The position numbers were made by a program, and so were the translations under genes. A stretch of 64,000 bases of DNA. Source: Moraxella sp. K1664 (lineage in GTDB: Bacteria; Pseudomonadota; Gammaproteobacteria; Pseudomonadales; Moraxellaceae). Location: assembly GCF_039693965.1 (NCBI RefSeq), contig NZ_CP155576.1:682001-746000 (forward strand), in the 5' to 3' direction. Positions 18,321 through 42,259 of the stretch are shown piece by piece; the stretch's first letter is position 1, and each line of letters opens with the position of its first letter. Below the pieces are notes generated by a model. The model had not been told where the DNA came from. It did no database searches and saw only the letters and a program-made list of their open reading frames with translations.

Positions 18321-18365
18321 TTTAAAACAGGTTAAAAGACAGCAAAGTACCATTTATCGCATAAT
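18321..18365 (+). promoter_or_regulatory. Late promoter 1 (Plys equivalent)
   Basis: TTTAAAACAGGTTAAAAGAC at 18321-18340, 19 bases, then CATAAT at 18360-18365. The element contains TTAAAA twice with a 10-base period, one DNA turn, and occupies the place of a -35 box, as expected for an activator site. Confidence 0.75.
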
Positions 18366-18394
18366 CTCCCAAGTATTTTCTTGGGAGATTTTTT
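18363..18394 (+). terminator. Terminator-like hairpin overlapping late promoter 1
   Basis: AATCTCCCAAG (18363-18373) and CTTGGGAGATT (18380-18390) followed by TTTT and the ATG of the lysozyme gene. The late start (about 18372) falls inside the left arm. Readthrough from the activator gene would therefore form the hairpin and stop, while late transcripts could not form it. GGGAG in the right arm is the lysozyme ribosome-binding site. Confidence 0.7.
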
Positions 18395-18943
18395 ATGTCA
18401 AATTTTAAAGTCGCATTAAAGCGTGTGCTAAAACACGAAGGCGGTTATGTCAATGACCCCAAAGACAAAGGCGGTGAGACCAATTATGGTGTTACGATTG
18501 GCACGGCTCGCCAGTTTGGTTATACAGGGTCAATGCGACACATTCCAATGAGCGTGGTAGAAAAAATCTACAAGGCAAGATTTTGGGACGCATTAAACTG
18601 TGATGAATATGCCACAAAATATGGTTTTGCTTTTGCATTTCAATTATTTGATGCAGGGGTTAATCATGGTGTAGGTAACGCCAAACGTATACTCCAACGA
18701 GCCGTAGGCGTGGTTGATGATGGTGTTGTTGGCAAGATTACCAAGCAAGCGATGAATGATAAAGCTCATGCTCTGACCGACTTATTTAACGCCGAGCGTA
18801 TTCATTTTTATACCAAAATTTCTAGCTTTAATCATTTTGGACGTGGCTGGATGAGACGAATGAGCGATAACCTTAAATTTGTCGCCCAAGATAGCCAACC
18901 CAACCTAACCAGTCAAGCTGACCAAGTTACTGAGCTAACCTAA
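18395..18943 (+). CDS. Phage endolysin, GH108 family
   Basis: 182 residues. The N-terminal catalytic domain carries HEGGYVNDPKDKGGETNYGVT, with the family's catalytic Glu in 'EGGY', followed by a peptidoglycan-binding region (LQRAVGVVDDGVVGKITKQA). It cleaves the glycan backbone of murein for host lysis. No signal peptide, so it needs a holin, and the next gene supplies a candidate. It is the first gene under late promoter 1. Confidence 0.92.
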   Translation: MSNFKVALKRVLKHEGGYVNDPKDKGGETNYGVTIGTARQFGYTGSMRHIPMSVVEKIYKARFWDALNCDEYATKYGFAFAFQLFDAGVNHGVGNAKRILQRAVGVVDDGVVGKITKQAMNDKAHALTDLFNAERIHFYTKISSFNHFGRGWMRRMSDNLKFVAQDSQPNLTSQADQVTELT

Positions 18944-18951
18944 GGGGCAAC

Positions 18952-19200
18952 ATGGCAAAGAAAAAGCAAATCACGATGGTGGATAACTGGCAGACTGGTT
19001 ATAAGTGGTTTAGCACATGGGCGTTTGCAATCATTGTCTTTTTAGCGACTGTACCACTACCACCTGAAATCGTGCAATTATTACCACCTGTCATTCAAGA
19101 CAAACTTACCGCCATTGTGGCGGTGTGTGGATTGATTTTGCGGTTTGTCAAACAAGCCAATTCTCATGCGGTTAGGGGGCATCATGACGGACATGATTGA
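18952..19200 (+). CDS. Putative holin
   Basis: 82 residues with hydrophobic segments at about 18-35 and 53-65 and a charged, His-rich tail (HAVRGHHDGHD). The pattern WQTGYKWFSTWAF...PLPPEIVQLLPPVIQDKL...ILRFVKQ resembles DUF7940 phage holins. Directly follows the endolysin gene. Confidence 0.75.
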   Translation: MAKKKQITMVDNWQTGYKWFSTWAFAIIVFLATVPLPPEIVQLLPPVIQDKLTAIVAVCGLILRFVKQANSHAVRGHHDGHD

Positions 19201-19396
19201 TAAAGCCAATGCCGACTACGAACGCTGGCTAAACAGCAAAATCAAACAAGCTCAAGTACCGCCAAATGACACTACCCTTTGCGTGGACTGTGGCAATCCG
19301 ATTGGCGACAAACGCAAACAAGCCATCCCCCATGCGGTGCGGTGTGTTGGTTGTCAATGGCAGTTTGAACGCACGCACGACAGGAGCGGACGATGA
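19184..19396 (+). CDS. DksA/TraR-type zinc-finger protein
   Basis: 70 residues. CVDCGNPIGDKRKQAIPHAVRCVGCQ is the C4 zinc finger of the DksA/TraR family, which acts on RNA polymerase through its secondary channel. Phage members lack most of the coiled coil, as here. The ATG at 19184 (MTDMIDKAN) overlaps the holin gene by 17 bases and is preceded by GGGG. Confidence 0.85.
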   Translation: MTDMIDKANADYERWLNSKIKQAQVPPNDTTLCVDCGNPIGDKRKQAIPHAVRCVGCQWQFERTHDRSGR

Positions 19397-19725
19397 TTTT
19401 TAAATTGGAACTGTATCAGCTTATCACACTTGTGATAACCATTGGTGGTACGTTGTGGGGCGTGGGCAAGGCTTTTTTTAGCCGAGTGGAAAGCTCAATC
19501 AAAGAAAAAGATGAAACTCTTGCTAAGGCTTTATCTGGTCTGGGTAATAAGCTGGATAAAGAATCCGAAGCCATTCGCCAGCTTGACCGTGAGATTTTAA
19601 AATTAAAGGCAGAGTTGCCCCGTGAATATGTCTCAAAAGATGACTTTATTCGCTCGTTTACAGTCGCCCAAGCCAAGATTGATGCGGTGCAAACCACGCT
19701 TACCCATTTGAATAAGGAAAAATGA
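19393..19725 (+). CDS. DUF2730 protein (Mu gp25-like)
   Basis: 110 residues: one N-terminal membrane helix (about 8-26), then a long coiled coil (ESSIKEKDETLAKALSGLGNKLDKESEAIRQLDREILKLKAEL). DUF2730 genes stand at this place in Mu-like phages; the topology suggests a spanin- or lysis-related membrane protein, but function is unproven. Overlaps the previous stop by four bases. Confidence 0.8.
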   Translation: MIFKLELYQLITLVITIGGTLWGVGKAFFSRVESSIKEKDETLAKALSGLGNKLDKESEAIRQLDREILKLKAELPREYVSKDDFIRSFTVAQAKIDAVQTTLTHLNKEK

Positions 19726-20036
19726 TGAGTGTTGATGTTTTAAAAGTTCGCCGTGAGGGTATGCGGTGGTACTTGTTATTAGCCTTGCATAATGCTCGCC
19801 CATTGGGGGCGTTAGACGTGCTTTTGCTTGATGTGGTGCGTAGCATCTATGCAGACGGCACAAGCACAGAGTTACACGCTCAGCTTGATTATCTGCATAG
19901 TCATCACTTTGTGGAGCTGAATAAACGCCCAGACGGTCATTGGCACGCCAAGCTGACCCACATTGGCATTGATGTCGTGGAATATGTGGCGGATTGTCCT
20001 GTGGGCGTGGCTCGTCCGTCAAAATATTGGGTTTAG
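19722..20036 (+). CDS. Mu gp26-like protein
   Basis: 104 residues, a small winged-helix-like protein (RREGMRWYLLLALHNARPLGALDVLLLDVVRSIY...LDYLHSHHFVELNK...LTHIGIDVVEYVADCPVGVARPSKYW). This family lies between gp25 and the small terminase in Mu-like phages. Function unknown; the fold suggests DNA binding. Confidence 0.8.
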   Translation: MMSVDVLKVRREGMRWYLLLALHNARPLGALDVLLLDVVRSIYADGTSTELHAQLDYLHSHHFVELNKRPDGHWHAKLTHIGIDVVEYVADCPVGVARPSKYWV

Positions 20037-20044
20037 GGGGTGTT

Positions 20045-20593
20045 ATGGCTCGTGCCAATGCAGTGAGTAAATTAAGCCCAGAGCATAAAAAACAGCTTGA
20101 TGACCGTTTGTTTTCAAACGGTTTTAACGGCTATGTGGAGCTTGAAACATGGCTTAGAGAGTTGGGCTATGAAATCAGCAAATCGGCTATCCATAGATAT
20201 GGGCAAAAGTTGGAGCGTAAATTATCAGCAATCCAAGCCAGCACCCAAGCGTCCTTGATGATTGCCGAAGCCGTGCCTGATGACGGCGATGCACGCTCGC
20301 AAGCCGTTTTGTCATTGGTTCAGACAGAGATTTTTAATGCGTTGGTTGCCCTACAAGACTTGGACGATGATGAAAGCATTGACCCTGTCAAGCGTTTGTC
20401 AATGATTACCAAAGCAGGGAAAGGCATTAGCGAGATTGTCAAAGCGTCTGTATTACAAAAACAGCACGCCCTAGATGTGAAAGAAAAAGCCGAAAAAACC
20501 GCCAAAGAAGTGCAAGAAATTGTGAAAACAGGCGGACTGTCTGACGAAACTGCTGACCTTATCCGTGCCAAAATTCTGGGGATTGCACCATGA
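20045..20593 (+). CDS. Small terminase-like protein, DUF3486 (Mu gp27)
   Basis: 182 residues. The N-terminus SKLSPEHKKQLDDRLFSNGFNGYVELETWLRELGYEISKSAIHRYGQKLERK is the DUF3486 DNA-binding region of Mu gp27, the likely small terminase subunit. The ATG at 20045 follows GGGGGTG, and an upstream start at 19994 lacks such a site. It overlaps the large terminase gene by four bases. Confidence 0.9.
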   Translation: MARANAVSKLSPEHKKQLDDRLFSNGFNGYVELETWLRELGYEISKSAIHRYGQKLERKLSAIQASTQASLMIAEAVPDDGDARSQAVLSLVQTEIFNALVALQDLDDDESIDPVKRLSMITKAGKGISEIVKASVLQKQHALDVKEKAEKTAKEVQEIVKTGGLSDETADLIRAKILGIAP

Positions 20594-22104
20594 CCGCCCC
20601 TAGCGTGCTTTTGCCCTATCAACAAAAATGGGTTGCCGACCAATCCGAAGTGAAAATCTTTGTCAAATCACGGCGTATCGGTGGTTCGTGGGCAGAAGCT
20701 GGCGAGTCCGCCCTTGAAGCCAGTCGTACCAACGGACAGGATACTTGGTACATTGGCTATACCAAAGACATGGCGATTGAGTTTATCCGAGATGTGGCGG
20801 ACTGGGCGAAGTTTTATAGCCTTGTGGCAAGCGAAGTAGAAGAGCATGAAGAGATTTTTGAAAATGGTGATGAGAAAAAGGCAATCCTTGCCTTTACCAT
20901 TAAATTTGCCAGTGGCTACCGTGTTACCGCCTTATCGTCATCGCCCAGAAACTTGCGTGGTAAGCAGGGGCGTGTCGTTATTGACGAAGCAGGGTTTCAC
21001 GATGACCTAGAAGAGCTGTTAAAGTCTGCCCTTGCCTTGCTGATTTGGGGTGGTTGCGTGCGAGTTATTTCAACGCACAATGGCGTGGATAACCCCTTTA
21101 ATCAGCTTGTAGAAGAGGTCAAGGCAGGTAAATTACCATACAGTTTACACCATTGTACCTTTGATGAAGCCCTAGAACAAGGCTTGTATCAGCGTGTCTG
21201 TTTAAAGCGTGGTATTGAATGGACGGTGGACGGAGAAACCGAATGGGCAGACAAAATCCGTGCGATGTATGCTGACAATGTTGATGAAGAGTTAAATTGT
21301 ATTCCTAAAAATAGCGGTGGGCGGTGGCTATCTCGCCCACTCATTGAGCAAGTCATGTCAGCTGATACACCGATTTTTGTCTATAAACGAGATAATGAGT
21401 TTAACTTGCAAGACGATTTTTATCGTGAAAATGACTGCGTGGACTGGTGCGATGAGCAGTTGGCGGACTTCTTGGCAGAAATCCCCAAAGGCAAAATCTT
21501 TATTGGGGGCGACTATGGACGAAATGGCGACTTAACCGATTATGCGATTGCGGTGCAAACGCCCGATTTAAACCTGCAATGCGTGGGCATGGTGGAGCTT
21601 GAAAATATCCCCTTTACCCAACAAGAACAGGTACTCAACTACATTTGCGACCGTGTAGAAAAACAGCTTGCAGGCGTGGCTTTGGATGCTCGTGGCATTG
21701 GGGCAAGCAATGCCGAAAAAGCCCAACATCGTTATGGCGTGGACACGGTGGAATGTGTCAAATTTAGCCAAAAATGGTATAGCCTAAATATGCCCCCATT
21801 CAAGGCAGGGCTTGAAGATAAGATGCTATTTAACCTACCCAAGCACGAAAATACGCTTTCGGATTTATTGGCATTTGAAATCATTGACGGCATTCCAAAA
21901 TTGCCCAATCGTAAAAACAAAGGGGCAAATGAGCAAGCACGACATGGCGATATGGGTATTGCATTGGTGCTTGCCTATTATGCTTTTAAAAATATTGACA
22001 ATGGTGGGGCGGACATACGCATTCACACCGCCAAACCACGAGTCTCTACCAAGCTATTAAAGGGCTTTGGGATTGGTGGCTTATTTAGGGGATTTAGACG
22101 ATGA
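20590..22104 (+). CDS. Large terminase subunit (Mu gp28-like)
   Basis: 504 residues. An N-terminal packaging ATPase with KSRRIGGSWAEA (Walker A variant) and VVIDEAGFHD (Walker B). A C-terminal RNase H-fold nuclease has GGDYGRNGDLTDYAI and LDARGIGAS acidic motifs. It pumps DNA into proheads and cuts it; in Mu-like phages packaging starts at a pac site near the end and takes flanking host DNA. Confidence 0.93.
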   Translation: MTAPSVLLPYQQKWVADQSEVKIFVKSRRIGGSWAEAGESALEASRTNGQDTWYIGYTKDMAIEFIRDVADWAKFYSLVASEVEEHEEIFENGDEKKAILAFTIKFASGYRVTALSSSPRNLRGKQGRVVIDEAGFHDDLEELLKSALALLIWGGCVRVISTHNGVDNPFNQLVEEVKAGKLPYSLHHCTFDEALEQGLYQRVCLKRGIEWTVDGETEWADKIRAMYADNVDEELNCIPKNSGGRWLSRPLIEQVMSADTPIFVYKRDNEFNLQDDFYRENDCVDWCDEQLADFLAEIPKGKIFIGGDYGRNGDLTDYAIAVQTPDLNLQCVGMVELENIPFTQQEQVLNYICDRVEKQLAGVALDARGIGASNAEKAQHRYGVDTVECVKFSQKWYSLNMPPFKAGLEDKMLFNLPKHENTLSDLLAFEIIDGIPKLPNRKNKGANEQARHGDMGIALVLAYYAFKNIDNGGADIRIHTAKPRVSTKLLKGFGIGGLFRGFRR

Positions 22105-23558
22105 ACGGCTTATATATCGGTAACGAATTTGTGTCATTTAGTGAGTTAAAAAGCAGTACACCGCACTTACGGCAAATCGCCAGTCGTGGCACGGTGTCGG
22201 GGTTTAGTTCGTTAAATAGCGTTCTGCCCAACCCCGACCCTATTTTAAAGAAAATGGGTAAAGACATTCAAGTCTATAAAGAAATTAAAGCCGAAGCAGG
22301 GGTGAAGGGCTGTTTAAGAAGACGAAAAAGTGCGGTTAAGTCTAAGGCGTGGCGGATTGTGCAAGACAAAGCAACGCCAGAGACAACCGAACGCATCAAT
22401 ACTATTTTTAAAAATTTGCCCCTATCTCGGATTATTGGGGCAATGGCGGACGCATCGTTTTATGGTTATCAGCCGTGCGAAATTTCTTGGGCGTATCAGG
22501 ACGGTGCGTGGTTGCCTGTTGATGTACAAGCCATGCCCCCTGATTGGTTCTTTTTTGACAGTGATAACCGCCTACGCTTTAAAGATAAGGACGCAGGGCA
22601 GGACGGCTTAATCGTGCCTGAACGCAAATATCTGTTGCCACGCCAAGACCCCACTTATGAAAATCCTTATGGCGAGCCTGATGCGTCTAGTGTGTTTTGG
22701 GCGACAGTATTTAAACAAGGCGGTCTGGACTTTTGGGTACGGTTTACCGAAAAATACGGTTCGCCGTGGGTCATTGGCAAATACGGCAAAAACTATGACA
22801 TTGAACAACAGCAAATCCTATTGGATAATTTGTCGTCAATGGTACAAGATGCGGTGGCGGTTATCCCTGATAATTCCACGGTTGAGATTATGGAAGCAGG
22901 TGGCAAAAGTGCGTCCAGCGATGCCTTTGAAAAGTTTTTGATGTTTTGCCGTAGTGAAGTTAATATCGCCTTGCTCGGTCAAAACCAATCCACCGAAAGC
23001 GATGCCACACGAGCAAGCAGTACCGCAGGGGCAGAAGTGGCGTTTGAGATTGCCCTTGCTGACTGCGAGATGATTGCCGAGCAGTTGCAAACACTCATCA
23101 ACTGGATTGTGGATTATAACTGGGGTGGGGTCGCCCCACAGTTTGAATTTTTTGAAGACAGTAACGGTGGGCTAGAACAAGCCCAGCGAGATGTGGCACT
23201 GACCCAAGCAGGGGCAAGGTTAAGCCGTCAATATTTTATGCGTGAATATGGTTTGCAAGACGGCGATATTACTGATGTGGGCGTAGGCATGGCAGAACAA
23301 CAATCTTTTGCCGAAGCCAGTCCCAAACCCCAAAGCGATTTTGTGGGTAAAACAGCTGATGAATTGGCAACCCACGCCAATCCCTATCTTGACGAAATGG
23401 TGGGGCGATTAAAGAAAATTGTCAATCAAGCCCAATCTTTTGCCGAATTGCAGGACAATATCGTCAATGCGTTTGATGAGTTAAATGCGGACGAGCTTGT
23501 CAAGGTAATGGAAATTGCGATGACTTTGGCAGAACTCAAAGGGCGGAGTGAGATATGA
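22101..23558 (+). CDS. Portal protein, DUF935 (Mu gp29-like)
   Basis: 485 residues. RRRKSAVKSKAWRI, FYGYQPCEISWAY, KYGSPWVIGKYG and GGKSASSDAFEKFLMFCRSEVNIALLGQNQSTESDATRASSTAGAEV are the DUF935 portal signature. It forms the DNA entry ring of the capsid. Overlaps the large terminase gene by four bases. Confidence 0.93.
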   Translation: MNGLYIGNEFVSFSELKSSTPHLRQIASRGTVSGFSSLNSVLPNPDPILKKMGKDIQVYKEIKAEAGVKGCLRRRKSAVKSKAWRIVQDKATPETTERINTIFKNLPLSRIIGAMADASFYGYQPCEISWAYQDGAWLPVDVQAMPPDWFFFDSDNRLRFKDKDAGQDGLIVPERKYLLPRQDPTYENPYGEPDASSVFWATVFKQGGLDFWVRFTEKYGSPWVIGKYGKNYDIEQQQILLDNLSSMVQDAVAVIPDNSTVEIMEAGGKSASSDAFEKFLMFCRSEVNIALLGQNQSTESDATRASSTAGAEVAFEIALADCEMIAEQLQTLINWIVDYNWGGVAPQFEFFEDSNGGLEQAQRDVALTQAGARLSRQYFMREYGLQDGDITDVGVGMAEQQSFAEASPKPQSDFVGKTADELATHANPYLDEMVGRLKKIVNQAQSFAELQDNIVNAFDELNADELVKVMEIAMTLAELKGRSEI

Positions 23559-23650
23559 AATTACATCTAATTTTAACCGCATATTTGTTATGCAATGCGT
23601 TTTGCTCAATCTATAGCGAGCCTGCTCATCATGCGTTGATGTATCTCTAA
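23555..23650 (+). CDS. Tiny hydrophobic prophage peptide
   Basis: A 31-codon frame (MKLHLILTAYLLCNAFCSIYSEPAHHALMYL, shown in pieces: a hydrophobic signal-like half then a polar tail). GGAG lies seven bases upstream and the ATG overlaps the portal stop (ATGA), so it is placed to be translated by coupling. It could be a small lipoprotein-like or regulatory peptide, or only a spacer. Confidence 0.45.
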   Translation: MKLHLILTAYLLCNAFCSIYSEPAHHALMYL

Positions 23651-23659
23651 GGTGGTAAA

Positions 23660-24886
23660 ATGACTAAAATCTCAGGACAACGTCTGCCCTTTCAAGAGCA
23701 AATTGACTTTTTACGACAAAAGGTGCGTATCCCCACTGAACGTTATGACGAGCTGACATCACAACAGCACGATAAAGCCTTTACAGTCGCAGGGGCAATG
23801 AAAGCCGACCTGCTTGCCGACCTACACAATGCCGTACAAAAGGCGGTGGCGGACGGTCAAGCATTCCACGAATTTCAAGCCCAGTTTGATGACATTTTGG
23901 CAAAAAAAGGTTGGCTGAACGACAAAGACAAAGATTATAAGGCGTGGCGAGCCAAAGTCATCTACGCCACCAATCTTAGAACCAGTCATATGGCAGGACG
24001 GTATAAACAGATGAGAGACCCCGATGTATTAAAATCTCGTCCGTATTGGCGATACAGACACAACACGGTGGAAAATCCTCGTCATCAGCATAAAGCGTGG
24101 GACGGCTTGGTGTTACCTGCTGATAGCCCTTTTTGGCAGATCAATTATCCACCAAACGGCTGGGGTTGCTGTTGTACGGTGGAAGCGATTAACGAGCGAC
24201 AGCTTAGGGCAATGGGCAAAACCAAGCCTGATGAATTGCCCAGTAATTATGTTGATAATTTAGGACATAGTTTTGATGGGGTGGCAGGGGCGAGCTGGTT
24301 TCCTGATTTGAATAAATACCCCTATGAAGTTGCCAAATCCTTTGTGGCGGATAATATGAAAGACGGTGTGTTTTTGCGTTGGCTTGGCAGGATTGAAACT
24401 CAGCTTGACGAATACAAAAAAGACACGCCTGATTATGACAAACTACCCAAGCAAGAACGCATTGACGGCTTTCGTAAGTTGGATAATGGCGAACGCTTTC
24501 CTGTGGCGGTGCTAAGCCCAGAGCAAAAGGAAATGTTGGGGGTCAGCACGCAGGTCATTGTGTTTAATGAAAATGATGCCCTAAAACAAGCCATTAGCCG
24601 AGACGGTAACACAGGCTTTGAGCCAACTGCCTATTATTATGTGCAACACTTGCTTGCCAATGCGGTGCTGGTGGTGCGTGAATACGATAAAAATGCAGGG
24701 AAATATCGTCAGCAGACGACTTGGATTGAAGGGTTGAACGAAGATGGTAAACGCTATTTGGCAATTATTCACCAAACAGGCGACAATAAAGAAGTGTATC
24801 TAAAATCTTACCGATTAGATAACACAAAAGTAGAGAAACTAAAAAGTAAAGGTATGGTGCTATTTGAACGACCAGAACCTGAGTAA
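23660..24886 (+). CDS. Head morphogenesis protein (Mu gpF-like) with C-terminal PBECR-like nuclease domain
   Basis: 408 residues. Residues 1-215 are the Mu gpF-like domain, ending in YATNLRTSHMAGRYKQM...PYWRYRHNTVENPRHQHKAWDGLVLPADSPFWQINYPPNGWGCCCTVEAIN. The remaining 150 residues (RKLDNGERFPVAVLSPEQKEMLG ... YYYVQHLLANAVLVVREYDK ... KEVYLKSYRLDN) resemble the PBECR2 (barnase/EndoU/colicin/RelE-like) domain often fused to this protein in phages. The fold assignment of the C-terminal part is by eye. Confidence 0.85.
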   Translation: MTKISGQRLPFQEQIDFLRQKVRIPTERYDELTSQQHDKAFTVAGAMKADLLADLHNAVQKAVADGQAFHEFQAQFDDILAKKGWLNDKDKDYKAWRAKVIYATNLRTSHMAGRYKQMRDPDVLKSRPYWRYRHNTVENPRHQHKAWDGLVLPADSPFWQINYPPNGWGCCCTVEAINERQLRAMGKTKPDELPSNYVDNLGHSFDGVAGASWFPDLNKYPYEVAKSFVADNMKDGVFLRWLGRIETQLDEYKKDTPDYDKLPKQERIDGFRKLDNGERFPVAVLSPEQKEMLGVSTQVIVFNENDALKQAISRDGNTGFEPTAYYYVQHLLANAVLVVREYDKNAGKYRQQTTWIEGLNEDGKRYLAIIHQTGDNKEVYLKSYRLDNTKVEKLKSKGMVLFERPEPE

Positions 24887-24892
24887 AAATAT

Positions 24893-25000: not shown

Positions 25001-25034
25001 TACTGTATCACAACCACACGAAAAGGTCAAGCAA

Positions 25035-25717: not shown

Positions 25718-25761
25718 TTTAAAACAAGTTAAAAGACCGCCCCAAAAATCTTTGTCATACT
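25718..25761 (+). promoter_or_regulatory. Late promoter 2 (PI equivalent)
   Basis: TTTAAAACAAGTTAAAAGAC at 25718-25737, 18 bases, then CATACT at 25756-25761. One mismatch to the element of promoter 1. It precedes the protease/scaffold gene, the place of PI in Mu. Confidence 0.75.
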
Positions 25762-25763
25762 AT

Positions 25764-25793
25764 GCCCAACTTTTTCACTAAGTTGGGTTTTTT
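25764..25793 (+). terminator. Terminator-like hairpin overlapping late promoter 2
   Basis: CCCAACTT (25765-25772) and AAGTTGGG (25780-25787) followed by TTTTTT and ATG. The predicted late start (about 25768) lies in the left arm, so only readthrough transcripts from upstream can form the stem. Confidence 0.65.
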
Positions 25794-28212: not shown

Positions 28213-28221
28213 GGGGTTTGT

Positions 28222-30071: not shown

Positions 30072-30168
30072 CGCCAAAAGCGAATTCGAGTTCGCTTTTG
30101 GCACTTCAAGTCAAATCCGACAATTTGTCGTTTTTGACTTAAATTTAATCAAAAATCCCAATTTGGGA
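30072..30168 (+). terminator. Three successive hairpins after the tail tube gene
   Basis: Stem 1: GCCAAAAGCGAA/TTCGCTTTTGGC (30072-30101). Stem 2: AAGTCAAA/TTTGACTT with inner CGACA/GTCG (about 30108-30140). Stem 3: ATCCCAA/TTGGGAT (about 30153-30168). Only stem 2 has T-rich flanks. The cluster probably attenuates transcription or protects the 3' end of the abundant tube message. Confidence 0.55.
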
Positions 30169-32145: not shown

Positions 32146-35100
32146 TAAGCCTTGATGACCAAAGAAAATCGGTGGCTGAGTTAAAAGCGGAATACAGTCA
32201 GCTTTCTGAAATCCAAAAACGGGTTAAATATGGCGAACAACTGGATAAAATCAATGAACTCACAAAGGCATACCACAAACAAGCCGATGCCCTAGAAGGG
32301 GTTATTTTGGACAGTAAGGGGTTTTATCGTGCCAGCATTGAGCAACAAGACCAGATATATGCTCTCGTTCAAGCCTATAAAAATGGCACGCTGTCAGCCG
32401 AACAACTTGCCAACGAAATGAATAAATTGGGCTTTGTCAGCGATGAGTTAAAGCGTAGAATTGATAAACAAGCCACCGCCACCCAGCTTGCCAAAAACGA
32501 GCTGGACAATGCCAATGATGTATTATCCGCCTATCAAGGTAAAACTATTTCAGCTACATCTGCCACCAACGGGCTGTCTAGTGGGCTTGACAATGTCGGC
32601 AGATCCGCCGAAAAAACCACCGCCAAGATTGGCGAATTGTCCAAGCAGTATAAGGATTTGATGGAGCAGACCAAAAAAGATATTTTTGAGCTTGAAATGA
32701 CCAATGCTCTTATTCAAAAACACGGGTTTGAGCCAGAAAGAGCGAGTGCCATTGCCAAAGCAAGAAGTGCCAAAGGGTCGGACTTAACCAAAGACGACAT
32801 TACCTTGATTGACAGACATTTGTCCGCCCAAAACAAACATGCCGAATTAACCAAAAAAGACGAACCCAGCACTACAAGTGCCAAAAAATCTACCACCCCA
32901 CGAGTGGTGGGCATTGTGGGCGATACAGGCATTGGGGCGACTCACTTGGACATTCGCCGTGCAGACGGCAAAAAGCCCACTCAGTCCGACCTTGACCGTT
33001 TTCGGGCAGGGGGCAAAAAGCTGACCGATTACCGAATGACATCAGGCTACGGCTGGCGAAATATCAATGTGGCAGGTGCGTCCAAATTTCATAAAGGCTT
33101 GGACTTTGCCATTGCCACAGGCACAGAAATTACCACCACCGTCCCTGTCAAAGATGTTAAAAAATGGTATGATAAAAAAGGTGGCGGTTATGTGAGTGAT
33201 GTTATTTTTGAAGACGGCTTGGTAATAAAACTACTCCACCAAGACCCGTCTATGCAACGAAAAGTAAGCACAGGGGCAAGCGGTGGCAGTAGTTCTCCCA
33301 CCAAATCCACCGCCAAAGCCGACAAACCTGCCTATTCATATAGCCCTGCCGACATCAAGGCAATGCAAAAAGTTCAATCGCTGGTGCGTGGCTCAGAACT
33401 TGCCAACATCGCCCAAAAACACGGCGTGCCTGTTGAGTTATTGGAAGGCTTGATGATGCAAGAGTCTCGTGGGCAACAATACGCCAAAAGCCATACAGGG
33501 GCGTTGGGTTATTTTCAGACCACAAGCGGATTTCGTCAGCAATGGGGACTTAGCCGTGATGACAGCTTTGATTTAATCAAATCAGGCACGGCAACGGTCA
33601 AATCGCTTGCCCAAGCCTTTAAGCATTTTGGTAACTGGGAAGATGCCATTCGCTCACACAATGCAGGTGTGGCAGGTACAGAGAAATTTAACAAAACAGG
33701 CAAAGTTGGCAATAGCAAGGCTCGCAATGATGAAGTGCGTGAGTATGTGCCAAAAATCGCCAAATGGTCAGCGTGGTTTGGTGATGACCGCCTAAATAAT
33801 CCAAAAATCCAAGATGACGGCAAAGACCACCGTGCCTTTGTTGACGCTCAATTTCAAGCCGAACAAGAAGCCAAACGCCAAGCCGAAGAGCGAGCCAAAG
33901 AGCAAGCAGAACTGGCACGCCAGCAAGCCGAAAAACGAGCTGAGCTGTTGTATGAATTTGCCAGCGACCCAGTTAAGCTAAAAACCGATTATGAGAAAAA
34001 AGTGTCCGAAATCAAGTCGGCAGGGTTTGAGCCAGCCCAAGAAACCGAGCTTTTACAAAAGGCGGAGCAAGAATACCAAGATAAGCTGACCCGTCGCCCA
34101 GAGATTTTGGAGCGAGCGTTGGGGGCGGTTAAACAGCTTGAACAGGACTTTTTGGGGGCGACAGTCAGTGAGCATGAAAAAACCATGCACGACATAGAGC
34201 ATAAATATGATGACTTACTTGCCGACATCAACGCCTTAAAAGAGCTTGCCATTGACCCTGTACATTTGGCAGAGCTGACCGATGCCGAGCGTAAAATTCG
34301 GCTTATCATTGACAAAGAGAAGCTAAAAGCCGAATATGACAATGCAATGGCGGAGCTGGATAAAATGCAAGCAAGCAAACAACAACAGCTTGATATTTTA
34401 CAACAACGCTATGATAACACCAACATGACCGCCCACGAATTTCACACCCAAAAACAGGCGATTGACACAGAAATAAACCCCCAATTACAAACAATGGCGA
34501 CTTATGCCCAACTACTCGCCCAAAGTCTAGGCGATGCCTTTTCGGTGGAAAAATTAGGGCTATTTATTGACGGCTTAAACCAAGCTCAAAGCAGTTTTCA
34601 GCAGTTTTTACCAACCGCCGAACAGTTAAATGACCGCATTACCAATGGGCTAACAGACGCATTTTTTGCGTTTGCAGACGGCACAAAGTCGGCAGAAACC
34701 GCCTTTCGTGAATTTGCGTCCGCTTTCTTTCGTGAGATTGCTCAGATGATTTTAAAGCAGATGATTTTTAACGCCATTTCAACCGCAGGTAAAGCAGGTG
34801 GTGGCGGTTGGGGCGGAGCGGTGGCTGGCGTGATTGGTTCGGCTTTTGGTGGCAAAGGCTATGCAACAGGTGGCTATACAGGCAAAGGCGGAAAATACGA
34901 GCCAGCAGGTATTGTTCATAGAGATGAATTTGTTATCAGAAAAGAGATGACCAACCAAGTGGGGGCAAAAGAATTTTTGGCACAATTTAACCGCTACGGC
35001 ATGAATGCCATTAAAGGCTTGCAAGGCTATTCAAGTGGTGGTTTGGTAGGGGCAAGTGTGCCACAAATATCCGCTCCAAGCATTCAAGCCCCAAAATTGT

Positions 35101-35276: not shown

Positions 35277-35279
35277 ATG

Positions 35280-35323
35280 TTTAAAACAGGTTAAAAGACG
35301 GTTTAAAAAACTTAGGTTATGAT
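35280..35323 (+). promoter_or_regulatory. Late promoter 3 (PP equivalent)
   Basis: TTTAAAACAGGTTAAAAGAC at 35280-35299, identical to that of promoter 1, 18 bases, then TATGAT at 35318-35323. It precedes the distal tail block. Confidence 0.75.
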
Positions 35324-35338
35324 AGCCTAAGTTTTTTA
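35305..35338 (+). terminator. Terminator enclosing the -10 box of late promoter 3
   Basis: AAAAAACTTAGG (35305-35316) and CCTAAGTTTTTT (35326-35337) flank TTATGATAG, so the -10 box is in the loop. The late start (about 35330) would lie in the right arm; only readthrough RNA from the tape-measure gene can fold it. Confidence 0.75.
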
Positions 35339-35344
35339 TTTTAC

Positions 35345-35475
35345 AGCTAGCAAAATTAAATTTTACTACACAAACCACTCGCCCTAAGCTTGTCAAAAAT
35401 TCGGTTTCTTCTATGGTTTGACAGGCTTTTCATGAGTGGAAAGCGTAGCACTTTTTCATTTTGCAGAGTGTACTT
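35345..35475. repeat. Dispersed intergenic repeat, diverged copy A
   Basis: It shares with 61649-61775 the order CAGCTA - TTTTACTAC - AAACC - CCCTAAGCT - GGTTT - ATGGTT(T/C)GACAGG - CATGA - TTTTGCAG. The ends AAACC...GGTTT are partly inverted. It lies inside the prophage between late promoter 3 and the first distal tail gene. Confidence 0.6.
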
Positions 35476-35491
35476 AAATTTTGGAATAAAA

Positions 35492-36325
35492 ATGCCACAT
35501 GACATCGGTTTTGTAACTGCCCAAGACGGCAAACCTGCCCATTATCAAATGCTCCAAAAAATCAAGGAATTAGCCGTCCGCTCGGGCGACTGGGAGCTTT
35601 TGCGTGAAGATACTAGCACCAAAAACCACGAGATTATCTTAAAGGGGCGTGGATATAGCAAACAAGAAGAGATTTTTGTTGGTGTGCGTACTTATCAAAA
35701 CCCACAAGCCGATTATTATAATTTGGCGGTGGCGACTTTTACAGGCTATGTGCCGTCCAACCCTTTTGACAATCAGCCGTCTGCCGTGTTAAGCGGTGTG
35801 CCAGCCCATAACCAACGCATTGATTATTGGCTGACGGTAAACCCACAACGCATTGCGTGTTGTATGAAAGTTGGTACGCCTGTTTATGAGCATTTCTACA
35901 TTGGCAAGTTTTTGCCCTATGCTCGCCCCAGTCAATGCCCTTATCCTGTGGTGTGTGCAGGTATGTTGCACGGCGTGCCAGCCACTCGTTTTTCGGACAC
36001 CAACCACAGTTTCCCTTATAAAGGCAACCGCAAAAATTTGGCAATGCGGTTTAACACAGGGGTTTATCTAAATGTAGAGTGCCATCCGTATAACTCATCA
36101 CCCCTAACGAGTTCACGCCAGTTAAGAGATACCAATGGCGTGTATCCACTTATGCCGATTATTTTAACGGACAATAATGGCATTTATGGCGAGTTTGACG
36201 GTGTGCGGTTTGTCAGTGGCTTTGATAACGTAACCGAAAATATGTGTGGCGATGACTGGGTGGTACTACAAGACGTGGGGCGGACGGGCTTTAACGACTA
36301 CATCGCATTGAGGTTAGATAAATAA
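35492..36325 (+). CDS. Distal tail-associated prophage protein A
   Basis: 277 residues. No named family recognised. It starts at 35492 (MPHDIGFVTAQDG) with GGA before the ATG. The in-frame extension to 35390 runs through the dispersed repeat and is not believable. Central part EEIFVGVRTYQNPQADYYNLAVATFTGY and C-terminal WVVLQDVGRTGFNDYIALRLD suggest a beta-rich virion protein. Its layout resembles the next gene, so the two may be old duplicates. Confidence 0.75.
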   Translation: MPHDIGFVTAQDGKPAHYQMLQKIKELAVRSGDWELLREDTSTKNHEIILKGRGYSKQEEIFVGVRTYQNPQADYYNLAVATFTGYVPSNPFDNQPSAVLSGVPAHNQRIDYWLTVNPQRIACCMKVGTPVYEHFYIGKFLPYARPSQCPYPVVCAGMLHGVPATRFSDTNHSFPYKGNRKNLAMRFNTGVYLNVECHPYNSSPLTSSRQLRDTNGVYPLMPIILTDNNGIYGEFDGVRFVSGFDNVTENMCGDDWVVLQDVGRTGFNDYIALRLDK

Positions 36326-36334
36326 GGGGCAAAA

Positions 36335-37231
36335 ATGGCGTATTGTACAGGTCAAGCAAATAGCCATCGGCAACTGGCAAATATCTTGGTGGAAAAATGC
36401 CAAGTTCATGGGTGGGTATGGCAACAGGGTATTTTGAGTAAAAATAACTGGTTTATCAAAATTTCAGTGCAAGAAAATCCCATGTCAAATCAAGGTATTA
36501 TTATAACAGGTGGTACGGGTCAGCAGGGTGCGACACTGGTCAATGCGAGTGCAACATCGGTAAGAATGGGTAGTCCGCACACGTCTGAGCTTTTGATTAA
36601 ATTCCCTGTGTTGTTTCATTTATTCATCTTTGAAAATGAGGTGTATTTAATTGCAAAATCCGACCATGACAAATATTATTATCTGGCATTTGGTGGCTCT
36701 GAACTGGTCAATCAAGCTCAGGCGAATGGGCTGTGGCTATCGGCAACAGCATGTTATCACGGATACTGGAGTCAATCCATAAGTATTTATGAAACAAATG
36801 GCGGTGCTGGCGGTGGTGGCAATCCTTCTGCGGTTGCTCCGTTTTGGAATAGGAGTGGGTTTAGTGAAAATTGGTCAAATGCCGTGATTTGTCATGGGCT
36901 AAACGATACACTTTGGTCATCTGGCAGTAGTATCGCTTATGCGACGTTTGAGCCACTCATCAGCCGTCTGCCCACCGCTCATTTTGCTGACAGTCCGCTA
37001 TTGCCTTACAACGTCTATCTGCAACGCCCCCAAAACAAACTTAGTCTTATCGCCCAGTTTGACAACGCTCGTTTTTTACGCATTGACAATCACGAACCCG
37101 AGCAAATCATCACATTGGGGCATGAACGCTGGATGATTTTTCCGTTTTTTAGAAAAAATATCGCCAGTAGAAGTCGTGGTTATGGAAATCACACAGGCAC
37201 ATTTGGCTGGGCAATCCGCTACGAGGGCTAA
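36335..37231 (+). CDS. Distal tail-associated prophage protein B
   Basis: 298 residues. The first 60 residues share the shape of protein A's start (a 'LVEKCQVHGWVWQQGILSKNNWFIKI' helix-strand unit). Later YLIAKSDHDKYYYLAFGGSELV and C-terminal WMIFPFFRKNIASRSRGYGNHTGTFGWAIRYEG correspond in position to protein A's ending. A Gly-rich loop (NGGAGGGGNPS) lies midway. Probably a tail-tip structural protein; receptor binding is possible but unproven. Confidence 0.7.
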   Translation: MAYCTGQANSHRQLANILVEKCQVHGWVWQQGILSKNNWFIKISVQENPMSNQGIIITGGTGQQGATLVNASATSVRMGSPHTSELLIKFPVLFHLFIFENEVYLIAKSDHDKYYYLAFGGSELVNQAQANGLWLSATACYHGYWSQSISIYETNGGAGGGGNPSAVAPFWNRSGFSENWSNAVICHGLNDTLWSSGSSIAYATFEPLISRLPTAHFADSPLLPYNVYLQRPQNKLSLIAQFDNARFLRIDNHEPEQIITLGHERWMIFPFFRKNIASRSRGYGNHTGTFGWAIRYEG

Positions 37232-38953
37232 ATGGCAATCATACAATACAGCGTAACGCAATCAGGATTTTTGCTTGATAATCAGTATCTAAGCCAAGAC
37301 TTAAATGGCTTGACTGGCGAGTCGTGGTATCCATTTTCTAATGCTCAAAACAGCCGTGTTTCTGACGGTTTGGCATATCGTTTAACCAATCATCTGCCCA
37401 TTACCACCGACCCACGCACGATAAAGCACATCATCGCAAAAAGCTATGTGGACGATTTTTATCATCGTATCCACATTGACAACTTGCAAGCGGATTTGGG
37501 CGTGGTGGCAAGTAAGCAGGTCATCAATTTTGCCCTTTGGAATGCCTATTTTGAGCCGTTGGACTTTACACGCATTGACGGCTTGGCGGTGGGAGCGTAT
37601 TTTGAACCACACGATTTGCCACCACTGATTTTTGAAGCATTGCAGGAGCGGACTTGGCAACTGCATATTTTACCAGACGGCGATGCCCGTTTAAGCCTTG
37701 ATTTGGCATGGCGATTTATCGGCAAACACACCAAAAACGCTTATCAAGTAGCAAGTCAGTTAAGCGGTCAGCGTGTCATTGGTTTTGCGTGGCTGATTGA
37801 CTGGGATAAGGGCGTAGCCGAGAGCCTTGCTTGGCACACCGACATTTTGCAATCCCAAACAGGACACGAGCAACGCCGTAGTTTACGCCTTGCCCCACGC
37901 CAAACACTTGATGTGAATTTGCTTTTACACGGTCAAGAACGCACGCTGTTTGACTTAGCAGTGACCGCTTGGGCGAGCAAAAATTTTGTTGTGCCTGTGT
38001 GGTTTTATCAAGCCTATTTGACGACAAAAATTAACAGTCAAAGCCGTGTCATTCTTTGCGATACCACCCAAATCCCTTATGCTAATTTTCAATACGTCAT
38101 GCTGATTAAAGACGCATTTAACTACGAAGTGAGCGAAGTGGGGGCGGTCAATGATGGTCAAATTGTCCTAAAACGCCCCTTGCAAAACGCTTGGGAGCGT
38201 GGCACGCAAATTTTTCCTGCTCTGTCTGCCCAATTAAACGGCTTGCCAAGATTGACTAAGCACAGCAGTCAAGTAATGCGAACCGCTGTCAGCCTACAAG
38301 CGGTGGACGGTGTGAACCTGCCAGACCCTGTCAAGCCTGACACATTTAGGGGTTATCCAGTCCTATCCATTGCCCCCAATGAAGTGGATAATTTGACCCA
38401 CAGTTATGAACGCTTGCAACAACAACTGGACAATTTGTCAGGTCGCCCCCTTTTGGTGGACAGTGCCAATGCCAGTTTTTCCTTATTCCAGTATCGTTGG
38501 TTTTTGGCAGGAGCTGAACAGCACCAAGAATTTTATGCGTGGCTCCATCTATTGAACGGACGGCAAAAAGCGGTGTGGCTACCGACTTTTAGCGGTGATT
38601 TACAACTTGTCAATGCCATATCGTCAGGCACACGTTTTGACGTGGCAAACTGTGGCTATACCAAGTTTGGGCAAGGACAAAACGGGCGACAATACATTTA
38701 TATTGAGTTGCACGGTGGCGAGCGGTTGTATCGCAAAATCATATCATCGCAGGAGCTTGGGGCGACAGAGCGTTTGACTGTTGATGAGTCATTTTTAAAT
38801 AATATTGCCACAAACCAAGTCAAACGCATGAGTTTTATGAGCCTTTGCCGTCTTAACAGCGACACTGTTAATATCGTTCATCACAATGACATTCAAGGGC
38901 TATCAACGGCAGAGATGACTTTTCGGGGCATTAAAGAACAGGAGAATAGTTAG
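37232..38953 (+). CDS. Distal tail structural protein
   Basis: 573 residues, beginning directly after the previous stop (TAAATG). The second half (FRGYPVLSIAPNEVDNLTHSYERLQQQLDNLSGRPLLVDSANASFSLFQYRWFLAGAEQHQEFYAWLHLLNGRQKAVWLPTF) is a recurring module of siphovirus-like proteins upstream of BR0599-type tail proteins. Likely part of the tail tip or distal tail ring. Confidence 0.78.
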   Translation: MAIIQYSVTQSGFLLDNQYLSQDLNGLTGESWYPFSNAQNSRVSDGLAYRLTNHLPITTDPRTIKHIIAKSYVDDFYHRIHIDNLQADLGVVASKQVINFALWNAYFEPLDFTRIDGLAVGAYFEPHDLPPLIFEALQERTWQLHILPDGDARLSLDLAWRFIGKHTKNAYQVASQLSGQRVIGFAWLIDWDKGVAESLAWHTDILQSQTGHEQRRSLRLAPRQTLDVNLLLHGQERTLFDLAVTAWASKNFVVPVWFYQAYLTTKINSQSRVILCDTTQIPYANFQYVMLIKDAFNYEVSEVGAVNDGQIVLKRPLQNAWERGTQIFPALSAQLNGLPRLTKHSSQVMRTAVSLQAVDGVNLPDPVKPDTFRGYPVLSIAPNEVDNLTHSYERLQQQLDNLSGRPLLVDSANASFSLFQYRWFLAGAEQHQEFYAWLHLLNGRQKAVWLPTFSGDLQLVNAISSGTRFDVANCGYTKFGQGQNGRQYIYIELHGGERLYRKIISSQELGATERLTVDESFLNNIATNQVKRMSFMSLCRLNSDTVNIVHHNDIQGLSTAEMTFRGIKEQENS

Positions 38954-38954
38954 A

Positions 38955-39794
38955 GTGAGTTTTGCCGACTTTGAGACATCATTACAAAACGCCCAACCAA
39001 TCCGCCTGTATCAGTTTAGTCGTGGGGCATGGCGGTGGGGCTACACGTCAGCCGACCGTGATGTCAGATTTCAAAACATGAATTTTGTGTCGCTTTTGGG
39101 TGGGATTAAAGATGACGGCATTCGCCAAACGCAGGACAGTGGGGGTGATTTATTGACCTTAACCGTGCCGTCATCGTGCGATTTGGCTCAAATGTATCGG
39201 CATTTTGCCCCTGCCCAAACGGTCAATTTGACCATTTTTGATTTACATTATCCCGAGCTTGCCAGTACCGAGCAAGGGGCATATTTGGCGGTATGGAAAG
39301 GCTTTGTGGTTGGTGTCAAATTTGTGGGTGACCACACTGCCCAAGTGCAATGCCAAAATTTATCCGTATCGCTTGAACGCACAGGACTTAGAAAAACTTG
39401 GAGCAAGCTGTGTTGTCATCAGCTCTATGGCAAGGGGTGCAACCTAGACAGACAGGCATTTATGAGCGAGATGACTGTTGTGGCGGTGGACAGCTCATTT
39501 GTAGATGTGGTTTTGCCAAGCGATAAATCATCGGACGATTATTTTACAGGCGGTTATGTACAATGGTCGTCCGAGTACGGCATTGAACAGCGTGGCATTG
39601 AACGGCAACTTGGCAACCGCTTGCAACTGTTTGGCGGTGTACAAGGCTTGACGGTAGGGCAAAATATCAAGGTTTTTGCAGGGTGCAACCGCACCTTTAC
39701 CGCTTGCCAGAGCAAATTTAATAATACTGATAATTATGGCGGTAGTCCACACATGCCCCACAAATCGCCTTTTGACGGCACACCAATTTTTTAG
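38955..39794 (+). CDS. Phage BR0599-family tail tip protein (DUF2163-like)
   Basis: 279 residues from a GTG. The C-terminal part has CCHQLYGKGC ... VFAGCNRTFTACQSKFNNTDNYGGSPHMPHKSPFDG, the BR0599 family ending. The cysteine set recalls lambda gpL, whose C-terminal domain binds an iron-sulphur cluster; a cluster here is an inference. Acts in tail-tip assembly next to the hub protein. Confidence 0.85.
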   Translation: MSFADFETSLQNAQPIRLYQFSRGAWRWGYTSADRDVRFQNMNFVSLLGGIKDDGIRQTQDSGGDLLTLTVPSSCDLAQMYRHFAPAQTVNLTIFDLHYPELASTEQGAYLAVWKGFVVGVKFVGDHTAQVQCQNLSVSLERTGLRKTWSKLCCHQLYGKGCNLDRQAFMSEMTVVAVDSSFVDVVLPSDKSSDDYFTGGYVQWSSEYGIEQRGIERQLGNRLQLFGGVQGLTVGQNIKVFAGCNRTFTACQSKFNNTDNYGGSPHMPHKSPFDGTPIF

Positions 39795-39804
39795 GAGATA
39801 AAAT

Positions 39805-42213
39805 ATGTGGGTACAAGTCGCCTTATTTGTTGCATCACTGGTCATCAGCTATCTTTTACAGCCCAAGCCACCCCAAGCTAAACCGTCCGCTTTTGATGAT
39901 TTTAAATTTCCAACGATTGATGACGGCACGCCACGCATTGTCGTGTTCGGCGATGTGTGGATAACTGATTGGTGTGTGATTGGGGCAGGTAATTATCGCA
40001 CCAGTCCTATTGTCAAAAAACAAAAAGGGCTGTTCGGCTCAAAACGCCAAACGGTGGGGCATCGCTATTTGATGTCGCTTCACATGGGGCTGTGCATGGC
40101 AATGGATGAGCTTTTGCAAATCAAGGTTGGCGACCGTGTGGCATGGCAAGGAGTTGGTGGCAGTGCCAACCAAAGCCATGTCCGCATTCACAAGCCTGAT
40201 TTGTTTGGCGGAGATGATAAAGAAGGGGGTATTGACGGCACGCTTATCATCATGAAAGGGGCAAGCGACCAACAGCCATTACCGCAATTACAACGTATGT
40301 ATAACAGCCCAGTCCCTGCCTATCGTGGGGTGGTAACGTTCTTTTTTGACGGCATGGTGTGTTCAGGTTCGCCCTATCCAAAGGCGTGGTCGTTTCGTGT
40401 TTGTCGTACGACTTGCGATTGGTATAATGAAAAAGCAACGATTTGGCTGAACGATGACAACGGTAATCAGATTAAGGCAATGAACCCTGCCCACATTATT
40501 TTTGAAGCCCAAACCAACGAAGATTGGGGGCGTGGTACAGACTTAGGACAGCTTGACCTTGACAGCTTTAAACAATGTGCTGATATTTTGCATAATGAGC
40601 GGTTTGGTATGTGCATCGCTTGGAAACGCCAAGATACTTTAAAGCAGTTTATTCAGCAAATCCTTGACCACATTGGCGGTGCGTTGATGATTGACCGCAC
40701 CACAGGCTTGTGGAAACTTGTGCTTATTCGTGAAAGTGATAGTCCTGACAGCTTGCCAAGTTTTGACTACGGCACGGGCATTTTACGCATTGAAGAAGAC
40801 AACAACTCGTCCAATGATTTAGTAACCAATCAGCTTGTTGTCAGTTATACAGACCCTGTGAGTAATGAAACTCGCACTGTCCGTACCGAAAATCTCGCCA
40901 GCATTCAACGAGACGGCATTATTTTGCAAAATAAAACTTATGTCGGACTACCAACAGCCGATTTGGCAGGACGTGTCGCTAGCCGTGATATGAAAATTAT
41001 CCAATCTCATCTAAAAAAGTTTAAAATCGTGTTAGACAGACGAGCCTATGCCCTGCAACCTGCATCTGATTTTGTGCTAAAAATCCCCCAAAGGGGCATA
41101 GAAAGCATCATCATGCGAGCGGTGCGTGTGGAGCATAATGAGATGACAAATGGCGAAATCATGGTAACGGCGGTGCAAGATGTATTTGGCTTGCCCCGTA
41201 CGACTTATCAGCAAGTTCAGCCAAGCCTATGGATACAGCCCAATCTTAATCCAGAGCCGATTGTGCATTCACGGCTTTGGCAGTTGCCTTATACGCATTT
41301 GCTGGACAATTTTAGTCATGAACAGCTCAAAAATGCCGATGATTATGTCCTTGTGTTGGCAGAACGCCCAAACAGTCTGCAACAGTCTTTTGAAATTTGG
41401 GCTAAAACCACCGATGAACAAAACGAACACTATGCAGGGCAAGGGCAATTTGTCGCTCGTGCAGTAGTGCAAGAGGCTGTTTTACCAACCAGTCAAGTTA
41501 CCATATTGACACTTGATGCAGTGGATATGGCAAGCATCGGTCAGTGTGCATTGCTGAATGATGAGATTGTGCAGATTGTACACATTGAGCAATCTCAATA
41601 TCAAATTCATGTCAAACGTGGCTGTATAGATACTGTGCCGACTGCTCATGCCCAAAATTCGGTCATTTGGCTGTATGGCGACATGGCGACCGTTGCCGAG
41701 CGAGCTTTTATGGCTAATAAAACCGCTCAAATCAAACTACTTTCGCAAACTTCGCAAGGTACGTTGGATGCGTCAAAAGCGACAGTAAATTCGCTTTTAA
41801 TAACCAACCGCCACGTTCGCCCCTTTGCCCCTGCTAATGTGCAAATCAATGAATTGTCTTACCCCAATCAAATCCAAACCCTAAACAAAATCTCGTGGGT
41901 AGGACGCAATAAAATCAGCCAAGATGTCGCCATTTTAGACCAAACTGCTCCACACCAAGAGCCTGAAACAGGGGCAACGGTTAGCCTAATTATCTCAAAG
42001 AAAACAAGTGCTAACGGCTCATATCAACGAGTGGTGCAAAAAGACGGCATCACAGGCTTTTTTATTGACATTGTCAAAGAAAATCCCAACAATGACGAAA
42101 CAAAACTCGTTGCTAATCTTGAAAATGCAGTAATGATAAAAGTAGAGCTGTGGGCAATCAAAGACGGCTTGGAGAGCTGGCAACGGCACAGTATAGAAAT
42201 GGCGGTGGTGTAG
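39805..42213 (+). CDS. Tail tip / baseplate hub protein (gpJ-like)
   Basis: 802 residues. An N-terminal hydrophobic segment (VQVALFVASLVISYLLQPKPPQ) and GTPRIVVFGDVWITDWCVIGAGNYRT are typical of gpJ-like tail hub proteins of phages with BR0599 partners. Hub domains occupy the middle and fibronectin-like strands the last 200 residues. As no separate fibre gene is seen, host recognition may lie here or in proteins A and B. AGGAG precedes the ATG. Confidence 0.85.
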   Translation: MWVQVALFVASLVISYLLQPKPPQAKPSAFDDFKFPTIDDGTPRIVVFGDVWITDWCVIGAGNYRTSPIVKKQKGLFGSKRQTVGHRYLMSLHMGLCMAMDELLQIKVGDRVAWQGVGGSANQSHVRIHKPDLFGGDDKEGGIDGTLIIMKGASDQQPLPQLQRMYNSPVPAYRGVVTFFFDGMVCSGSPYPKAWSFRVCRTTCDWYNEKATIWLNDDNGNQIKAMNPAHIIFEAQTNEDWGRGTDLGQLDLDSFKQCADILHNERFGMCIAWKRQDTLKQFIQQILDHIGGALMIDRTTGLWKLVLIRESDSPDSLPSFDYGTGILRIEEDNNSSNDLVTNQLVVSYTDPVSNETRTVRTENLASIQRDGIILQNKTYVGLPTADLAGRVASRDMKIIQSHLKKFKIVLDRRAYALQPASDFVLKIPQRGIESIIMRAVRVEHNEMTNGEIMVTAVQDVFGLPRTTYQQVQPSLWIQPNLNPEPIVHSRLWQLPYTHLLDNFSHEQLKNADDYVLVLAERPNSLQQSFEIWAKTTDEQNEHYAGQGQFVARAVVQEAVLPTSQVTILTLDAVDMASIGQCALLNDEIVQIVHIEQSQYQIHVKRGCIDTVPTAHAQNSVIWLYGDMATVAERAFMANKTAQIKLLSQTSQGTLDASKATVNSLLITNRHVRPFAPANVQINELSYPNQIQTLNKISWVGRNKISQDVAILDQTAPHQEPETGATVSLIISKKTSANGSYQRVVQKDGITGFFIDIVKENPNNDETKLVANLENAVMIKVELWAIKDGLESWQRHSIEMAVV

Positions 42214-42215
42214 TT

Positions 42216-42259
42216 TTTAAAATAGGTTAAAAGACCACTAATCAGATGGGCGATAAAAT
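42216..42259 (+). promoter_or_regulatory. Late promoter 4 (Pmom equivalent)
   Basis: TTTAAAATAGGTTAAAAGAC at 42216-42235, one mismatch to promoters 1 and 3, 18 bases, then TAAAAT at 42254-42259. No GATC site is near, so the Dam/OxyR control of Mu mom is not expected. Confidence 0.75.

Follow-up and report, generated by a model that had tools for sequence, protein, structure and literature searches.

Candidate Mor-type late promoters and nested hairpins in a Mu-like prophage of Moraxella sp. K1664 and in related single-Mor phages

The window analysed here, a stretch of 64,000 nucleotides of Moraxella sp. K1664, carries a Mu-like prophage with genes for a Mor-family activator (mor), endolysin, terminase, portal, head protease, capsid, a siphovirus-type tail, com and a D12-class methyltransferase, and within it a 20-base element, TTTAAAACAGGTTAAAAGAC, occurs four times on the plus strand (Table 1). 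The copies show 0, 1, 0 and 1 mismatches, as expected from the original prediction of four copies with at most one change, and they are the only matches in the window at up to three mismatches; shuffled windows gave a mean of 0.01 matches at this threshold, and none of 100 shuffles reached four. As for the possibility, raised with that prediction as one that would speak against it, that the element is common elsewhere in the host, a pattern search of the 2.78-Mb genome at up to three mismatches found no copy outside the four in the prophage. A -10-like hexamer follows the final C of the element after 19, 18, 18 and 18 bases, within the predicted 18–19 bases and against a background rate of 3.9% of positions for such a hexamer at 18 or 19, and a relaxed pattern scan of the window returned exactly the four plus-strand candidates, referred to below as Plys, PI, the distal-tail promoter and Pcom. 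Three of the four elements begin 3–5 bases past the preceding stop codon, and the genes downstream are, in order, those for the endolysin (GH108), the head maturation protease, a structural/tail block after the tape measure, and com (Zn_ribbon_Com), each copy lying upstream of a late block as proposed. The four late promoters of Mu, namely Plys, PI, PP and Pmom, which act with the activator C (PMC4461284), have the same order of functions, and to this extent the suggested correspondence with the Mu positions stands; the siphovirus-type tail of the prophage makes the third position only an analogue of PP, and other prophages have a different set of positions.

The mor product scores 108.7 bits against the Pfam Mor model (PF08765; curated cut-off 24.9), which places it in this family, and is assigned to the PHROG late transcriptional activator. 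A phmmer search of PDB sequences gave E values of about 1e-9 to C (9l0x, 9vw8) and Mor (1rr7), and cryo-electron microscopy entries for Mu C and Mor with E. coli polymerase (9l0x, 9l0y) were released in December 2025. The window activator is 29% identical to Mu Mor and 31% identical to Mu C, and is close to neither. Only one Mor/C gene is present in the whole genome, and the two-step cascade with separate Mor and C proteins that characterises C-type Mu late promoters is not found here. In Mu, mor closes the early operon, whereas in the window prophage (9200–18318) the early genes, with transposases of the A and B types, run leftward and mor, next to the endolysin gene, is on the late strand. 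The probable promoter of mor, Pmor, lacks the Mor element; its stretch is almost identical in Moraxella caprae, whereas the sequence upstream has diverged, and a search for an operator common to Pmor and the early control region returned none that was convincing.

The element is best read as a dyad, TTTAA-N6-TTAAA, followed by AGAC. In the 19-base core of Moraxella-type copies, bases 6–10 vary while the flanks are constant (TTAA and TTAAAAGAC are fixed by the search pattern, and base 5 is free), which suggests two recognised half-sites separated by a free spacer. The direct repeat of TTAAAA at a 10-base period, as which the element was originally described, is literally present, but the sixth base of the left TTAAAA varies among relatives, and the arms are inverted both in Mu Pm and in Pseudomonas phage JBD25 (TTTTCG-N6-CCAAAA, with the Mor recognition helix LTPSSIY as against LSLPYIY); the direct-repeat reading was rejected on these grounds. 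The core alone cannot separate direct from inverted repeats, TTAA being its own complement.

According to PMC4390567 (also PMC4287176), a Mor dimer binds Mu Pm on a 16-bp element that spans -51 to -36 and has two inverted arms of 5 bp, and the former source also places a site for the C-terminal domain of the alpha subunit (alpha-CTD) in this promoter. By that numbering, the Mu sequence at -51 to -36 is AGTAA-AGCCGG-TTAAT, identical to the window element at 11 of 16 bases, and the Pm -10 box, TATCCT, begins 22 bases past the 16-mer, a gap equal to that in the window (4 bases of AGAC plus 18). The window element has the 16-bp dyad, 5-bp arms, 6-bp spacer and distance to the -10 box of a Mor-type promoter. 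It shares with Pm the TAA-N6-TTA core, the lack of a good -35 box and a Mor-family activator; unlike Pm, which drives the middle operon that makes C, the window site is present in four copies that would drive late genes, with no second activator C. In the Mu sequence, the -10 box of Pmom follows the tetrads TTAT-N6-ATAA at a distance of about 24 bases. The Mu late promoters share little sequence with one another (PMC4461284), whereas the four in the window share a 20-mer with at most one change.

Among 199 sampled genomes of the family, besides single scattered matches, one further genome of the genus, that of M. caprae DSM 19149, has four copies, in the same order and with similar spacing, and a short contig of another genome carries one. 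The same four promoters are found in the M. caprae prophage and in an IMG/VR prophage; between the window and M. caprae, the spacer is identical at 7 of 19 bases at Plys and at 8 of 18 at Pcom, while the element and the -10 box are kept. A de novo repeat search of other Moraxella Mor prophages, in which the window motif was not used, found TTAA-N6-TTAAAAGAC in G086 and G052, with three copies each, and in G078 contig 20, with two; a pattern search added G063, and the same code is present in six Moraxella Mor prophages. Across 22 Moraxella genomes this pattern has 26 matches, with 22 in Mor prophages at operon starts, three strays, and one before the tail-chaperone gene in G092, a genome without a Mor hit; the reversed pattern gave scattered background matches throughout the genus. 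A -10-like hexamer accompanies each of the 25 listed promoters, after 18 bases in 21 of them and after 19 in four. The promoters of the other Moraxella prophages stand before small terminase, head protease, tail chaperone or baseplate genes, as assigned from protein sequences, and the Mu-like set of positions is therefore a property of the window type and not of the code. Two genomes with Mor genes and no element (G094 and G097) were set aside as uninformative, as they look like remnants in which no recognisable late phage genes follow the Mor gene. Close variants of the promoter occur in Pasteurella phage AFS-2018a, E. coli phage PhiKM and Klebsiella phage KP12, a divergent form in JBD25, and one weaker candidate in Vibrio ZX4290.

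In IMG/VR, the bare 20-base pattern gave mostly chance matches, and requiring a -10 box at fixed spacing yielded many multi-copy prophages: the patterns TTAAN6TTAAAAGAC and TTTAAAN4TTTAAAATC, both followed after 18–19 bases by a -10-like hexamer, gave at least 32 contigs carrying two or more promoters. Among the matches listed, to which the IMG/VR counts given here and below are limited, exactly one Mor gene is present in 30 of 32 multi-promoter contigs, and the two without Mor are fragments of 15–16 kb; in comparison, Mor is present in 2 of 32 contigs drawn from the bare-pattern scan. This co-occurrence, which the original prediction had proposed to seek in related prophages, is an association and not evidence of binding, because the choice of contigs with two or more promoters favours Mu-like phages. 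Together with the -10 spacing, which stays fixed while the spacers diverge, and the match to Mu Pm, it strongly supports the claim that the late promoters are under the single Mor/C protein. The prophage is Mu-like with a siphovirus-type tail, and its four elements very probably serve as late promoters that the one Mor-family protein it encodes activates.

At Plys, PI and the distal-tail promoter, hairpins are nested in the promoter sequence itself. Folded from the -10 box, the Plys hairpin, an 11-pair terminator-like site (shuffle p = 0.002), reaches -16.8 kcal/mol (z -5.6), compared with -0.8 kcal/mol if the RNA starts at 18372. The PI hairpin reaches -14.7 kcal/mol (z -4.2; shuffle p = 0.012) and -4.9 kcal/mol from +1, and the distal-tail hairpin, folded from the end of the element, reaches -16.5 kcal/mol (z -6.0; shuffle p = 0.08 with a stricter arm statistic) and is unfolded if the RNA starts near +1. 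The anti-Shine-Dalgarno sequence CTCC is located between the -10 box and +1. Between relatives the pairing is kept and the bases are changed: the Plys arms are CTCCCAAG/CTTGGGAG in the window and CTCCTAAG/CTTAGGAG in M. caprae and G109, and the PI arms are GCCCAACTT/AAGTTGGG in the window and GCCCATTG/CAATGGGC in M. caprae.

The hairpin was first noticed in Moraxella and a few phages, and was then tested on IMG/VR promoters chosen regardless of hairpins. A hairpin at p < 0.05 is present at 30 of 36 non-redundant promoters (Fisher 2e-33), and after the removal of nine promoters from the discovery prophages or close phage copies, 24 of 27 keep p < 0.05; hairpins at promoter-linked starts (23 non-redundant promoters) are also stronger than those at 152 other phage start codons (p = 6e-6). 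Across the 36 promoters, strong stems begin at the -10 box (bins 0–9) and not elsewhere, 85% of hairpin pairs have their 5' base before the predicted +1, and the 3' arm just before the start codon is followed by a T-run in 20 and is Shine-Dalgarno-like in 21. When the leader is started from +1, its folding energy changes from -14.3 to -5.0 kcal/mol, and the openness of the Shine-Dalgarno sequence is 0.30 in read-through RNA versus 0.52 in promoter-started RNA (p = 2.5e-5), a difference that persists with the start shifted 2 bases in either direction (over the three assumed starts, p is about 2.5e-5 to 6e-5). Given the predicted start sites, this geometry, with the 5' arm upstream of the late start and the 3' arm over the ribosome site, is that of T4 gene e, in which, according to PMC3014915, longer early transcripts hide the lysozyme ribosome site and late promoters start inside the hairpin. 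The likeness extends to a late start in the 5' strand of the hairpin, a ribosome site hidden in the longer RNA and a guarded lysis gene. The Mor phages differ in being unrelated to T4 and in their promoter type, in the recurrence of the device at most late promoters, and in a hairpin that is often terminator-like as well and coupled to the Mor promoter code.

From these sequences, we infer Mor binding, the use of sigma-70, the start sites, termination and translational hiding in the following scheme. A Mor dimer most likely occupies TTTAA-N6-TTAAA, centred about 43 bases before the start, where it would replace or assist a poor -35 box (AAGACN) and, by the precedent of Mu Mor and C, recruit or activate host sigma-70 polymerase at the -10 box. 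The hairpin at Plys, PI and the distal-tail promoter would add a second layer in the same bases, its 5' arm falling after the -10 box and short of +1 (at the distal-tail promoter, immediately ahead of the -10 box) and its 3' arm and T-run, often with a Shine-Dalgarno sequence, just before the start codon. RNA arriving from upstream, chiefly from mor into the endolysin gene, would fold the hairpin and either terminate or have its ribosome site hidden, and RNA started at the late promoter would lack the 5' arm and leave the ribosome site free. The endolysin ATG is 77 bases downstream of the mor stop codon. The mor gene has a conserved sigma-70-like promoter of its own, and its product is needed ahead of the late genes, so that without such a block endolysin would be made too early by read-through from Pmor. 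It is reasonably probable that the hairpin insulates the late genes from such read-through and keeps the lysis and capsid genes silent until they are due.

Several points weigh against this scheme. The start sites were set by convention 7 bases after the -10 box. At Pcom, the shuffle test found no nested hairpin (p = 0.88), its 150-base leader containing other stems, and no significant hairpin was found at the tail-chaperone promoters of some Moraxella prophages, at JBD25 lys or at the G052 small terminase. The AlphaFold model of the window Mor is modest (predicted local distance difference test 72, predicted template modelling score 0.40), with C and Mor chains still the top fold-search matches. 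It is also possible, although doubtful, that the promoter stands and the hairpin is only the terminator of the preceding operon, pressed against the next promoter by genome compaction, with the hiding of the ribosome site as a by-product. At least four T in the 8 bases after the 3' arm are found at 20 of the 36 promoters, the hairpins of Plys and PI rank among the strongest terminator-like sites on the plus strand in 16.3–36 kb of the window, and the short distance from preceding stop codons noted above fits this account as well. However, many hairpins without a T-run, which is absent in 16 of 36, still pair the Shine-Dalgarno sequence or abut the ATG, as with GTCTCC/GGAGAC in PhiKM, and the position of the 5' arm before +1 is fixed, which a mere terminator would not need.

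A 5' stem that stabilises the late mRNA would also be expected at the 5' end of the predicted late transcripts, where the hairpin lies, but in about 85% of the pairs a base from before the predicted start takes part, and most of the folding energy of the leader is gone when it begins at +1, which makes such a role extremely improbable. The element itself is AT-rich, and Mu Pm also bears an alpha-CTD site (PMC4390567), so that another factor (a host regulator, the alpha subunit at an UP element, a repressor or the transposase) could be imagined to bind it, with the match to the Mor site as an AT-rich coincidence. This is very unlikely, given that the element is absent from the host genome outside the prophage and tied to Mor genes in many prophages, that its N6 spacing and position match Mu Pm, and that JBD25, with its differing Mor recognition helix, has differing arms.

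With moderate confidence, the single-Mor transposable phages of several bacterial groups can be proposed to share one late-promoter design, in which the Mor dyad, the -10 box and a hairpin formed only on read-through are fused, and in which the promoter would, in addition, end the preceding operon as its terminator and hold the following gene under a translational lock; in this view Mu, which has two activators and late promoters that have diverged, would be the exception. Two components are already known, the activation of Mu promoters by Mor and C and the device at T4 gene e. In searches of the open-licence literature, we found neither a late-promoter code common to single-Mor phages nor hairpins nested in such a code described, and among Mu-like phages only Mu had its late-promoter motifs described; a paper on PaMx73/D3112-type phages gives generic promoter predictions only. 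In the same literature, a nested hairpin guarding late genes is known from T4 but is not reported for any Mu-like phage. A readable late-promoter code would become available for a large group of transposable phages that are known chiefly through Mu, and because this code is tied to a single activator, late operons should be predictable from sequence. The nested hairpin would provide a compact means of silencing lysis and capsid genes during early read-through.

Table 1. Promoter elements, hairpins and associated genes in the window
Feature	Position	Strand	Basis or remark
Probable Pmor: palindrome CAAGAAAAATCTTG (17864–17877), -35-like TTGTAA (17875–17880), -10-like CATAAT (17898–17903)	17864–17903	+	consensus scan
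mor, single Mor/C-family activator gene (119 aa, GTG start)	17959–18318	+	Pfam Mor E = 1.9e-31
Mor-type element of Plys, TTTAAAACAGGTTAAAAGAC	18321–18340	+	pattern match
-10 box CATAAT of Plys	18360–18365	+	predicted +1 near 18372, from -10 position
Nested hairpin of Plys, CTCCC/GGGAG, then T-run and endolysin ATG (18395)	18363–18390	+	folding
Endolysin gene (GH108)	18395–18943	+	ATG at 18395
Mor-type element of PI, TTTAAAACAAGTTAAAAGAC	25718–25737	+	pattern match
-10 box CATACT of PI	25756–25761	+	predicted +1 near 25768
Nested hairpin of PI, GCCCAACTT/AAGTTGGGT, then T-run and head protease ATG (25794)	25764–25788	+	folding
Mor-type element of distal-tail promoter (P-like)	35280–35299	+	pattern match
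Nested 16-bp hairpin bracketing distal-tail -10 box, then T-run	35304–35338	+	folding
-10 box TATGAT of distal-tail promoter, inside hairpin	35318–35323	+	predicted +1 near 35330
Mor-type element of Pcom, TTTAAAATAGGTTAAAAGAC	42216–42235	+	pattern match
-10 box TAAAAT of Pcom	42254–42259	+	spacing to element
com (42411–42611), overlapping D12-class DNA methyltransferase gene (42574–43440)	42411–43440	+	

Some further features were seen in related phages. Immediately ahead of the ribosome site of Mu gene I stands CTGCTCA..TGAGCAG (L126 18020–18060), possibly a nested hairpin of the same type at Mu PI. Before a baseplate W-like gene (L168 28201–28260 and L169 17221–17275), the hairpin loop contains the -10 box, and with the predicted start 0–3 bases from the ATG the mRNA would be leaderless. 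In the G052 prophage, the four late promoters are intact but the Mor gene is divided between two reading frames (L137 2800–3047).

Within the window, a dispersed host repeat (35341–35470; 26 genome matches at 72–100% identity) stands between the distal-tail promoter and its first gene, and is absent at the equivalent place in M. caprae and in IMG/VR 2876138306. The com leader contains a stem, AGCCGTTGTG/CAACACGGCT, with a short T-run (42338–42363), about 50 bases before com, which may be an attenuator, and a tandem heptamer, AATTGCG, of about 13 units (43939–44030) near the right end of the prophage may be a phase-variation tract. An inverted sequence, AAAAGCGA..TCG..TTCGCTTTT, is repeated at 30072–30099, 9090–9117 and 41771–41798, with a degenerate fourth copy at 34700; one copy lies in the gap between the major tail protein and tail chaperone genes, and these repeats are likely a family of bidirectional terminators.

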